From Akkermansia sp. (lineage in GTDB: Bacteria; Verrucomicrobiota; Verrucomicrobiia; Verrucomicrobiales; Akkermansiaceae): a stretch of DNA of 34,200 nucleotides. The stretch is from contig JAFQEF010000057.1 of the NCBI GenBank assembly GCA_017399165.1, positions 1-34,200 on the forward strand, read 5' to 3'. Below, piece after piece: positions 1-34,200 of this stretch. The notes under the pieces were generated by a model. The model was not told the DNA's origin. It made no database searches and worked only from the letters and a program-made list of their open reading frames with translations. Both the position numbers and the translations under genes were made by a program. The stretch's first letter is position 1; the number at the start of each line of letters is the position of its first letter.

Positions 1-6
1 TAACAT
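1..6 (-). CDS. Start of a probable IscB/IsrB gene, cut by the window edge
   Basis: Only the first two codons (Met-Leu) lie in the window; the gene runs leftward out of it. An ATG at 6-4 is preceded on the minus strand by GAAGGAG, 7 bases upstream, an unusually good ribosome-binding site for this window. The identification as the RNA-guided nuclease IscB or its relative IsrB comes wholly from the OMEGA RNA just upstream, because in IscB loci that RNA precedes the gene. Nothing of the protein can be seen, so the coding call is inference from context. Confidence 0.4.
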
Positions 7-14
7 GACTTGTC

Positions 15-242
15 TCCTTCTCGGTTACGGACGTTTAGTCCTTTCAATTATTCGAGACGAATCGCGGAGCCTCCACTATGGAGGGGCTGGGGTGACCCAT
101 ACTTCTAATCGGGACGTTCTTCTTCCCTTGTCCCCTAAACGGGTGTACCCCCAGCCGGCTTGTCAAGAGTAGCTAACTTCGACAAGCCTCTCCGTCGGCT
201 CGGATTTTACTCCGAACAGCCGCATGTTACCACATTTAATTA
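15..242 (-). ncRNA. OMEGA RNA (HEARO-type) of an IscB-family locus
   Basis: Read on the minus strand this stretch folds into a compact RNA. A stem CGGCT/AGCCG (196-222) encloses CGGA/TCCG. It is followed directly by the block GCCGACGGAGAGGC, then by an 8-bp stem GGCTTGTC/GACAAGCC (157-188) and GCCGG. An 8-bp long-range stem pairs 85-92 with 149-156, and local hairpins lie at 70-84 and 29-41. The order and sequence of the first two stems with the GACGGAGAGGC block agree with what I recall of the IscB OMEGA RNA scaffold (HEARO motif). In such loci the RNA lies 5' of the nuclease gene and its guide comes from the DNA flanking the 5' end, which here would be near 243-265. The boundaries are approximate. 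No covariance model was run. Confidence 0.75.
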
Positions 243-252
243 ACCGGGTCCC

Positions 253-369
253 CAATTTGTTTATATCGTAGGGTGGGACTTAAGTCCCACTTTCATGGTG
301 GTATACCTTGATAATATGTTGGACTAAAGTCCAACACTCCGATAGCATTCGCCCCACAAATACCAATTT
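253..369 (+). repeat. 117-bp palindrome-rich repeat, copy A
   Basis: By eye this is identical, as reverse complement, to 3095-3211. It contains two near-perfect palindromes, GTGGGACTTAAGTCCCAC and GTTGGACTAAAGTCCAAC. A third weaker hairpin (CCCC/GGGG around 351-375) begins at its right end. It has no reading frame of note, so it is probably a non-coding mobile or REP-like element. It abuts the OMEGA RNA on the left and the GYF-domain gene on the right. A hairpin related to its right end, without the rest, occurs again at about 3410-3437. Confidence 0.9.
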
Positions 370-423
370 ATAGGGGCACTGCAAAATAAATAATTTTGCT
401 GCGTTTTCCGGACATCCCCGGTT

Positions 424-849
424 TTAGATACGCCCTGTCTCCCACACATCATACGCAAACTTAAAGGCAAACCAACAGAATGCCAGCAAGATGATGACGG
501 AGACAAGGAAAAACAGGTTCCAACGCAAGGCGGAGCGGGATGCCGCTGCGGCCTCTTCATAACGCCCCTGCCCGTACAGCTCCGCCACACGAGCAGATTG
601 GCGCATTGCTATCAGGCTGAAGGGGAAACAACAAAACACGCTCACAAAGCTCCACACAGAATACGTAGGCGGGCATGGGGGCACCGGAGGTAATTGCTCA
701 TAACTGCACCATGCGCCCTGTCCGTTCATTAACACGGGCACATCTGCCGGCAGCTCCTTGCGCGCCACCAAGTCTGCCAAAGCGGCTCGGGTATATGGCC
801 CCTCCGGCACTGCTCCGGGGCTGCGCTGTATGTAGTGGGAATCCGCCAT
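424..849 (-). CDS. GYF-domain and dispanin/CD225-like membrane protein
   Basis: A 141-residue protein. Residues about 5-53 resemble the bacterial GYF_2 domain (GPYTRAALADLV, then GAWCSYEQLP), a small domain usually thought to bind proline-rich partners. A proline-rich linker follows. The rest resembles CD225/dispanin: a first membrane segment around 63-81 (SVWSFVSVFCCFPFSLIAM), a polar loop with AELYGQGRYEEAAAASRSA, and a second membrane segment around 111-131. The Met at 849 is chosen because the GYF domain begins there; an upstream in-frame Met at 891 would add 14 unrelated residues. It is divergent from the GreA-like gene and has no visible operon partner. Its function is unknown; the family is often annotated as DUF4339/CD225 protein. 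Confidence 0.75.
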   Translation of the reverse strand: MADSHYIQRSPGAVPEGPYTRAALADLVARKELPADVPVLMNGQGAWCSYEQLPPVPPCPPTYSVWSFVSVFCCFPFSLIAMRQSARVAELYGQGRYEEAAAASRSALRWNLFFLVSVIILLAFCWFAFKFAYDVWETGRI

Positions 850-2991: not shown

Positions 2992-3094
2992 CATCGGGCT
3001 ATTTGAGGTACGAATTACGATATACGAAATGGGGACCTCGAAAAACTCAACCAAGCCATTAATCTTCCATCCTGAGACTTACCGAGGTCCCTAC

Positions 3095-3211
3095 AAATTG
3101 GTATTTGTGGGGCGAATGCTATCGGAGTGTTGGACTTTAGTCCAACATATTATCAAGGTATACCACCATGAAAGTGGGACTTAAGTCCCACCCTACGATA
3201 TAAACAAATTG
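3095..3211 (-). repeat. 117-bp palindrome-rich repeat, copy B (inverted)
   Basis: Perfect reverse complement of 253-369. With copy A it brackets 2.7 kb holding the GYF protein and GreA-like genes. On its left an inverted repeat GGGACCTCG (3033-3041) / CGAGGTCCC (3080-3088) and a TACGAA-rich tract (3007-3030) relate it to the other dispersed repeat near 33859-34062. The non-coding stretch 2930-3478 consists largely of these repeats. Confidence 0.9.
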
Positions 3212-3244
3212 CCATTTGTCGAGTTTTTAGAGATGCCCAATTTT

Positions 3245-19408: not shown

Positions 19409-21403
19409 TTACTTACGACGACGGCGGGCGGCCAACGCTGCCATTGCCAGCAAGCTTAATGTTGCTGTGGTCGGCTCGGGGAGTGTTTTGTATGCACGTA
19501 CCGCTTCATGACCTTCCGCATCTCGAAGAACTATTTCAGTGTCTCCGGAGAACGTGTCCGACGTGTAATTTGTAAACAGATCAGACTTGTTCAGGAAGTT
19601 GAAATCCGTGGTTGTATCTCCATCTGTAATATCGCAGTCCACCAACAACACTATAGAAGAGCCGTTCAAGGTAATGGCATTACCATTCATGTCCAAACTA
19701 CCGTCCATGGTGAAAACGATGTCGGCAGATGAATAATAATCCTGCAAGTTACCGAACATATCAACTATACCCTCAACATTCAGCGAGCCAGCGGTTAAGA
19801 ACACCGTTTGCATAGAGCTGCCATCTACGGCCGTAAGGGTTGTATCAGCAGAATTCAACCACGTTGTGCCCTCTATCCGGCCCTCATTACGCATACCGCC
19901 GGTTGCTGTAAGGGTAAGATAAGCCTCTACGGTTCCTTCATTAACAAATTGCTCAGAGCCGGATACATAAAGATCATCAGCACCCATGGTACCGGTATTC
20001 GTAACTTGCGCAGAGCCGGATACAGTAATCTCAGCAGCACTGATTTTACCGTCATTTTGAACAACCAGGTTTTCAATAGCTCCAGAATACCCCGGGCCGA
20101 ATTCAATACTATTAACTACATTAATTTCTGCTCCCTTATGGTTATTAATAATACCGCCATAAATGTGAGCATCATCCTTTCTGGTAAACATCGAGCCGTC
20201 AGTCATACGATTGTTATCATAAGTGGTGTCGATAGTTACCTTACCATGGTTATTGAGGGTAACACCGTCATGCATGTATAACTGAGCACCGTCAAAAACA
20301 AGCTCAGAGGAAGCATCATGCACGGTAACATCTACAGATGCCCCGTTATTTTTCATGCCCTCATAGCCCAAATGAGTGGTATGATTATTGAAATTAGCGG
20401 TGCCACCCCCCTTAACATCTATCTGGGTTTTGGTGTTTTGAGGATAGCTATCAACTTCTGACATATAACCAAAACCGATATAGGCAGTACCGGAGCGCCC
20501 CTCCGGATATTTTTCGGGGTCAGCGTTGGTCGGATCCATCACAGAGAACGTACCGCCATCTACTGTAATGACAGAGGTGGTGTTACTGTCCTCATTCGTA
20601 GAAAAACCGCCTAAATATTTGTCCATTTCAGAGGCATAAATATCAAGCTTGCCACCGTTGGTAACATTGATTTCTGAGGTAGTGTTTTCACCTACACCCA
20701 AGGATGTTTTGAAGCCTTTGTAATATTCGTTGCCCGAGTCCTTATTACCAAACACGGCAACAGAGTCTTTACCGGTAACAGTAAAAGAAGCTTCACCCAT
20801 TAACACATGGCGGTAAGATGCGTTAAATGTAGAGCCACCGCTTACAATCACATCGCCTCGGCCAAACGTATTTGCACTGCCATTCTTGGCAGGGCTGGTC
20901 ACGCCTGTGAAACCATCTGTAGCGGAGGGGCCATATCCCCCCTGAACACCCACAGTAAAGAGCTCACTGTTATTGCCCTCTATAACAGAACCTTCGGAGA
21001 ATATCAATGTACCATTGCCATCTGCACCACCCACATGCTTCATGGAGCTATCGGACTCCCGATATATGGCATTAACAAACTCCAAAACAGCATTCTTGCC
21101 GGATACACTGAACGCGGTATTGTCTTTAGTTGTATTCGGGTGTAATACCAAGGTTGTATCCGTTTCTGAGCTACCAACCACAACCCTACCTTCTCTCACG
21201 TAGAGGGAGGCATTTTTGGTGACATCTCCTGTTATCACTACGGTTCCACTACCATCTTTTGCAATGCAATCTGCATCGGCAGCCATAAACTCCTCCGTTG
21301 TCGTAACAACAGCACCCGGAATTACAGCTTCTGCACGCAAATTCCCGGCGATTACCGAACCGAGAATTGCCATCATAAACGCTTTGGGCAAATGTAATTT
21401 CAT
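19409..21403 (-). CDS. Exported PEP-CTERM beta-solenoid surface protein
   Basis: 664 residues. A signal peptide (MKLHLPKAFMMAILGSVIAG) is followed by a long run of short beta-rich repeats with many Gly, Asn, Thr and Ser, like autotransporter passenger domains (SGSAQVTNTGTMGADDLYVSGSEQF type). The C-terminus carries the PEP-CTERM sorting signal: LPEPTTATLSLL, a hydrophobic helix and a basic RRRRK end, which exosortase-type enzymes process. No beta-barrel transporter domain is present. The protein is probably surface or matrix material, with partner unknown. No exosortase gene is in the window. A 157-base leader and two 19-bp dyads lie upstream, suggesting dedicated regulation. Confidence 0.88.
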   Translation of the reverse strand: MKLHLPKAFMMAILGSVIAGNLRAEAVIPGAVVTTTEEFMAADADCIAKDGSGTVVITGDVTKNASLYVREGRVVVGSSETDTTLVLHPNTTKDNTAFSVSGKNAVLEFVNAIYRESDSSMKHVGGADGNGTLIFSEGSVIEGNNSELFTVGVQGGYGPSATDGFTGVTSPAKNGSANTFGRGDVIVSGGSTFNASYRHVLMGEASFTVTGKDSVAVFGNKDSGNEYYKGFKTSLGVGENTTSEINVTNGGKLDIYASEMDKYLGGFSTNEDSNTTSVITVDGGTFSVMDPTNADPEKYPEGRSGTAYIGFGYMSEVDSYPQNTKTQIDVKGGGTANFNNHTTHLGYEGMKNNGASVDVTVHDASSELVFDGAQLYMHDGVTLNNHGKVTIDTTYDNNRMTDGSMFTRKDDAHIYGGIINNHKGAEINVVNSIEFGPGYSGAIENLVVQNDGKISAAEITVSGSAQVTNTGTMGADDLYVSGSEQFVNEGTVEAYLTLTATGGMRNEGRIEGTTWLNSADTTLTAVDGSSMQTVFLTAGSLNVEGIVDMFGNLQDYYSSADIVFTMDGSLDMNGNAITLNGSSIVLLVDCDITDGDTTTDFNFLNKSDLFTNYTSDTFSGDTEIVLRDAEGHEAVRAYKTLPEPTTATLSLLAMAALAARRRRK

Positions 21404-34062: not shown

Positions 34063-34130
34063 TGGGGACCTCTAAAAACTCAAATTAAGACAAGACCGGG
34101 CAGTATGAAGTAAAGTCATAGAGAGCCGGT

Positions 34131-34169
34131 GACGAAAAATGCGCCTATTTCGGCGCATTTTTCGTCTTT
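34131..34169. terminator. Strong terminator-like hairpin at the right edge
   Basis: Perfect 15-bp stem GACGAAAAATGCGCC / GGCGCATTTTTCGTC with a 6-base loop. The gene it serves is probably outside the window, on the minus strand to the right. The sequence 34081-34130 holds nothing I can assign. Confidence 0.75.
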
Positions 34170-34200
34170 CTGTATTCATTAGGGTACAGTTCACCCTATA

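Follow-up and report, generated by a model that had tools for sequence, protein, structure and literature searches.

What kind of mobile DNA is cut off at the left edge of this Akkermansia contig? The window, 34,200 nucleotides that make up contig C49 (one of 134 contigs in a draft genome of 2.76 Mb), stops two codons into a mobile-element gene (ATG TTA at 1..6, minus strand), as the preliminary description of this DNA had already observed. That description assigned the structured sequence upstream of the gene to the OMEGA (HEARO) RNA of an IscB nuclease. We are highly confident, from sequence comparisons, that the left edge (1-248) belongs instead to an IS110-family insertion sequence, as its left end, and that a bridge RNA, predicted within it, likely directs the recombinase to a MITE-like repeat, present at some 120 sites in this genome, for insertion at the inverted-repeat ends. 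IS110 elements with bridge RNAs are a known kind, of which this is a new member; we found no publications on it in a literature search that covered neither subscription papers nor preprints.

Identity of the truncated element

The first 258 bases of the left edge have two further copies in the same genome, each at a contig end: C62 (99%) and C58 (98%, 226 bases). The window holds only the first two codons of the gene, and the C62 copy runs on: its ATG opens a 325-aa frame starting MLHHKK that is interrupted by the contig end. This frame matches the DEDD (PF01548, 1e-19) and Transposase_20 (PF02371, 1e-12) domains and no other Pfam family, and it scores 170.9 bits against a cut-off of 140 with NF033542, ‘IS110 family RNA-guided transposase’. 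Its only relatives in the PDB are IS621 (2e-28) and ISCro4 (9t56, 3.1e-29), the latter being the closest solved protein by sequence, at most about 30% alike by eye in a comparison of the proteins. Residues D25, D110, D113 and S249 align with D11, D102, D105 and S241 of IS621 (numbering counted by hand, with a two-residue tag in the PDB chain), and the C62 copy thereby joins both domains to the catalytic serine, as in the DEDD/serine transposase of IS621. Upstream of the gene lies a long noncoding left end of the type found in the IS110 group (4..246, minus strand), in which 243 nt separate the core from the ATG; C62 and C58 carry it in identical or near-identical form. Neither the exact left end nor a relative of the transposase was present in the viral contigs searched.

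All of the motifs behind the earlier assignment are indeed present on the minus strand of 1-245: CGGCT/AGCCG around CGGA/TCCG, then GACGGAGAGGC, GGCTTGTC/GACAAGCC and GCCGG, and an 8-bp stem GGCTGGGG/CCCCAGCC followed by GAAGGAG and an ATG. The order of the stems and the position of the RNA directly 5′ of a mobile-element gene, which the HEARO RNA (RF02033) shares, speak for IscB, and a RuvC-like fold occurs in both the IscB and the IS110 protein families. However, the HEARO covariance model returned zero matches in window positions 1-500, even at E 10, and the protein starting Met-Leu is, in C62, an IS110-family DEDD transposase with Transposase_20, for which domain searches of the 325 aa reported no HNH domain. 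An IscB nuclease is thus refuted for the C62 copy, and we dropped the IscB/HEARO reading, which retains virtually no probability for this locus. A HEARO search of the whole genome likewise returned no match, which by itself is no proof, because 0 of 14 control genomes gave a match. The element further differs from IscB, whose OMEGA RNA carries one guide, in having two loops that match DNA. What survives of the proposed transposon-derived RNA-guided nuclease is an RNA-guided mobile element with a structured guide RNA directly 5′ of its gene; the IscB part does not, and the locus passes to the bridge recombinases, another RNA-guided system.

Structure and covariation of the predicted bridge RNA

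The left end folds with a minimum free energy of -94.2 kcal/mol compared to a mean of -70.6 for shuffled sequences (z -4.67), and none of 200 dinucleotide shuffles was as stable. A MAFFT alignment of seven left ends (three from this genome and those of G034, G021, G023 and G011) gave a consensus of 56 pairs, 23 of which had changed on both sides. The covariance model built from these seven sequences (R1) matched the window at 4-248 with 288.2 bits and, among 78 genomes, had matches in 18, this one counted; 17 belong to the genus, and one, a weak match, lies outside it. From the 30 loci of the R1 search, 23 were fitted to the structure in a second alignment (A2), which omitted G057, two G008 pieces, two further G014 copies, G017:C373 and G034:C9. 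Within these 23 sequences, aligned to the model, both sides had changed in 44 of the 56 pairs (shuffled mean, 29.6), and 90.1% of the cells could pair versus 69.5% in shuffles and at most 46.8%, with 23 pairs, when the partners were slid. The covariation score was 0.471, as against 0.150 for shuffles and no more than 0.088 for slid partners. An IS110 transposase piece follows 15 of the 23 matches, and three others run into the edge of their contig (C49, C58 and G025C123). At the remaining five loci (L173, L153, L154, L158 and L168), the 1.3-1.5 kb after the RNA contained no IS110 transposase.

Read 5′ to 3′ on the minus strand, the predicted RNA begins with a stem-loop (196..223; fold and covariation, helix 1), followed by the 5′ strand of a long-range closing stem, CGGAG/CTCCG (190..194, pairing with 65-69; fold and covariation, helix 3), and by a second stem-loop, GGCTTGTC...GACAAGCC (157..188), in which 11 of 12 pairs changed on both sides (helix 4, A2). 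The target-binding loop comes next (85..156), delimited by the covariation of helices 5-7 and by guide matches, and is separated from the donor-binding loop by a stem-loop, CCTCC/GGAGG (70..84; helix 8, A2), and by the 3′ strand of the closing stem (65..69; fold and A2). The donor-binding loop (12..58; covariation and guide matches) contains the ribosome-binding site, GAAGGAG (14-20). The alignments and the guide comparison agree on a conserved structure with internal target and donor loops, as expected of a bridge RNA. A single base within 85-156 of the window copy is unlike C62 and C58 and breaks a pair of the target-loop hairpin.

This architecture resembles that of IS621 (Durrant 2024; Hiraizumi 2024), which likewise encodes its guide RNA upstream of the gene within the left end; that RNA has a 5′ stem-loop, a target loop and a donor loop, each loop with a left and a right guide. 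The succession of stem, left guide, hairpin and right guide described for the IS621 loops (PMC11208158) is the same in both loops here. The predicted RNA differs from that of IS621 in its length (about 206 nt rather than 177 nt) and in having two additional stem-loops and the long-range closing stem. The search also brings to light a group of bridge RNAs in Akkermansia-type gut bacteria that go unrecognized by Rfam and whose guides vary among close relatives.

Target guides and the MITE-like repeat

The left target guide, UUUAGGGGAC (130..139, minus strand), repeats in sense orientation the flank to the left of the core (GGGGAC here) and matches 7 of 8 positions of the left flank of the C49 copy and 6 of 8 in each of the C62 and C58 flanks. 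The right target guide, AUUAGAAG (102..109, minus strand), is complementary to the right flank that would be expected (TCTAA here); it predicts CT-TCTAAT and agrees at 5 of 6 non-core positions with the repeat family, a comparison made with the repeat sequence and not with an actual right junction. Together the guides read GGGGA-C / CT-TCTAA, which corresponds to the inverted-repeat end GGGGACC^TCTAAAAACTCG of a MITE-like repeat. The pattern GGGGACCTCTAAAAACTCG occurs at 124 genome sites with up to 3 mismatches versus 2 sites for the reversed pattern. Among the sites listed, at least 9 carry exactly GGGGACCTCTAA, and C111:34159 reads GGGGACTTCTAA, the target called for by the guide with a CT core. 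A scan of 65 loci of this genome revealed 9 distinct inverted pairs spaced 174-213 bp apart. We had labeled this 124-site repeat REP-like; because of its inverted-repeat ends, on which the label rests, MITE-like is the better word.

The window itself carries the repeat in several states. Next to the insertion, GGGGACC (247..253, minus strand), known from repeat sites and paralogues, forms the first 7 bases of the 19-bp terminal inverted repeat and would supply the left target and the core, and the inner part of the repeat continues to position 379 (253..379, minus strand; dozens of genome copies, query 42-168). One of the 9 inverted pairs is an intact 208-bp repeat with both ends (3031..3238), a predicted target copy that is unoccupied. 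A further unoccupied site lies at 34064..34200 (plus strand), where the same 19-bp end starts another multi-copy element; its first 137 bp close the window, and it has 5 copies at contig ends of this genome and one in G005. All five of the own copies stop at the contig end, and none shows the element's gene.

To what extent do guides and flanks agree across the clade? The left guides of 15 lineages from the 23 sequences of A2 were compared with the left flanks, allowing two guide offsets for true and shuffled pairs alike. The comparison leaves out C62 and C58 (the same element as C49, scored apart at 6 and 6), the near copies G063C66, G063C24 and G025C123, and the rearranged or truncated G031, G022C51 and G022C49. 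The summed match was 85 of 120, a value reached in none of 100,000 permutations (mean, 51.3; maximum, 76). The own flank was strictly the best in 8 of the 15 lineages and tied in 3; the other 4 (G021, G067C29, G024 and G007) fit another lineage's flank better. On the right side, the guide is complementary to the flank in the 5 relatives with known right ends, with 4, 6, 6, 4 and 6 of 6 non-core positions matched in the own flank and 1-4 in the others (0-4 once the repeat row of the present element is included). These scores take the best of three copies for G023 and G014, and the right end of G011 is on another contig.

Two other explanations of these matches deserve consideration. The RNA could merely fold into a leader regulating how the transposase is translated, or the copies could be dead remnants in which the guide matches are a relic. 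The donor-loop stem does cover the ribosome-binding site, the transposase is missing from the 1.3-1.5 kb that follow five of the 23 RNAs, in relatives, and the base change in the window copy disrupts its target-loop hairpin. Yet guide-flank agreement tracks the own site of each lineage, which counts against a leader because a leader would not need such matching, and in C62 the transposase reads through 325 aa uninterrupted, catalytic residues included; we consider either alternative improbable. There is similarly little chance, in our estimation, that GGGGACC is the element's own end rather than its target, in which case the guide match would be no target match. That reading draws on the fact that three of three copies in the genome carry a GGGGACC-type end and that the right junction was absent from the assembly searches. 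The three left junctions share one position within the repeat end, after GGGGACC or GAGGACC, but GAGGACC, seen at one copy, is a variant also found in the repeat, and repeats in which no element has inserted have GGGGACC as well. In C39, an uninterrupted paralogue of the C62 flank (53/60 identical), TCTAAAAACTC stands where C62 has CGGTTAATT, and one of the C49 flank (C94, 43/60 identical) continues with TCGAAAAACGC, so that both diverge right after the core; for the C58 flank, the loci examined included no such paralogue. Furthermore, relatives that share the end CGGTTAATT have other flanks, which match their own guides.

Insertion into the ends of a dispersed repeat has precedents. IS110 elements, IS621 among them, insert into dispersed repeats, with REP described as targets (PMC11208160), and IS4321 and IS5075 insert into the terminal inverted repeats of Tn21-family transposons (PMC8269217). 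The latter two elements thus also target the ends of other mobile elements, though theirs are Tn3-family ends whereas the predicted target here is a MITE-like repeat. They are assigned to the IS1111 group, whose inverted repeats are subterminal and whose RNA lies in the right end (PMC11187229). The natural target of a bridge recombinase can, in our case, be read from sequence alone, and the predicted guide aims at the ends of other mobile repeats. We tentatively suggest, as an idea somewhat more apt to fail than to hold, a lineage of bridge RNAs that makes its home in other mobile DNA: evolution may have reprogrammed the guide to an inverted repeat common to the MITE-like family and the second multi-copy element, providing more than 100 renewable landing sites that are harmless to the host, and the sisters would keep the same scaffold with other guides. 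As part of the same proposal, the structured and unusually conserved right end of the clade may be a second functional RNA.

Core dinucleotide, donor loop and right end

The core at the left junction (247..248, minus strand) was located from the left-end alignment and from the paralogues, which diverge directly after it. It reads CC at three of three left junctions; both guides call for CT, the core of the close relatives G034, G021 and G023. In IS621, the second core base T is nearly invariant, and CT is a strong but not absolute preference, GT, AT and TT having also worked (PMC11208158). The element described here differs from IS621 in its CC core and in a left guide that covers only the first core base. 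If a CC core works, the core rule of IS621 is looser than thought. The left junctions of G063, G067, G024 and G025 have the cores AA, CA and AG, and their guides imply CA or CG.

The right end of this element was absent from the assembly in four sequence searches. The transposase tail and right end of one relative matched only the coding DNA of C62, the right end of another had no match in this genome, the exact end TTATAATTGAC turned up once, at an unrelated position in C111, and nothing in the assembly corresponded to the expected right junction. Because the own right end was not found, the right target, the donor pairing and the promoter are carried over from relatives. Their elements end in CT-CGGTTAATT on the left (CT-CAGGTGAT in G023) and in ATAATTGA-CT on the right. 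The predicted left donor guide, AUAAUUGA (44..51, minus strand), is identical to this right end (ATAATTGA|CT), and the right donor guide, UAACCGAG (20..27, minus strand), is the complement of CTCGGTTA, in a left-end alignment where the end here starts CCCGGTTA. Against the own left end, CGGTTA matches and the second core base mismatches; the right-side match is to the ATAATTGA of relatives. Joining the ends of 5 relatives produces TTGACT, 17 nt and TAnnnT, and only the -10 side is seen in the own element, where TAACAT (224..229, minus strand), 17 nt from the core, is the predicted -10 box.

By analogy with IS621 and its relatives, the element would leave as a circle whose joined ends form a promoter, with the -35 box contributed by the right end, that transcribes the bridge RNA. 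A promoter across the joined ends has been reported for IS110 circles (PMC11208160). The donor loop would pair with the joined ends while the target loop, as predicted from its guides, directs the recombinase to the inverted-repeat ends of the MITE-like repeat, and the DEDD/serine recombinase would exchange strands at the core dinucleotide. The right junction predicted from these steps consists of the right end, CC or CT, and TC[T/G]AAAAACTC.

The right ends of close relatives measure 184-187 nt. The left end of the IS110 group is reported to be significantly longer than the right end; unlike IS621, close relatives of our element have a long, structured right end. A long hairpin is seen in this region of the IS110 clade (L041:3553-3739, L040:1418-1601 and L039:1300-1483). 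Its covariation is weak (5 of 36 pairs), and an Rfam search with a relative's right end gave weak hairpin matches below gathering scores and no family that fits. Between G021 and G023, the right ends are 95.7% identical, compared to 62.9% for the genes and 66.4% for the left ends. One locus matched by the R1 model (L100, in G017:C373, at about 729-860) has a left end and a right end without a gene, with a left core of CC and a right core of CT, and is likely a non-autonomous derivative.

Elsewhere in the window, a 664-aa reading frame (19409-21403, minus strand) ends at its C-terminus in LPEPTTATLSLLAMAALAARRRRK, which resembles a PEP-CTERM-type sorting signal.
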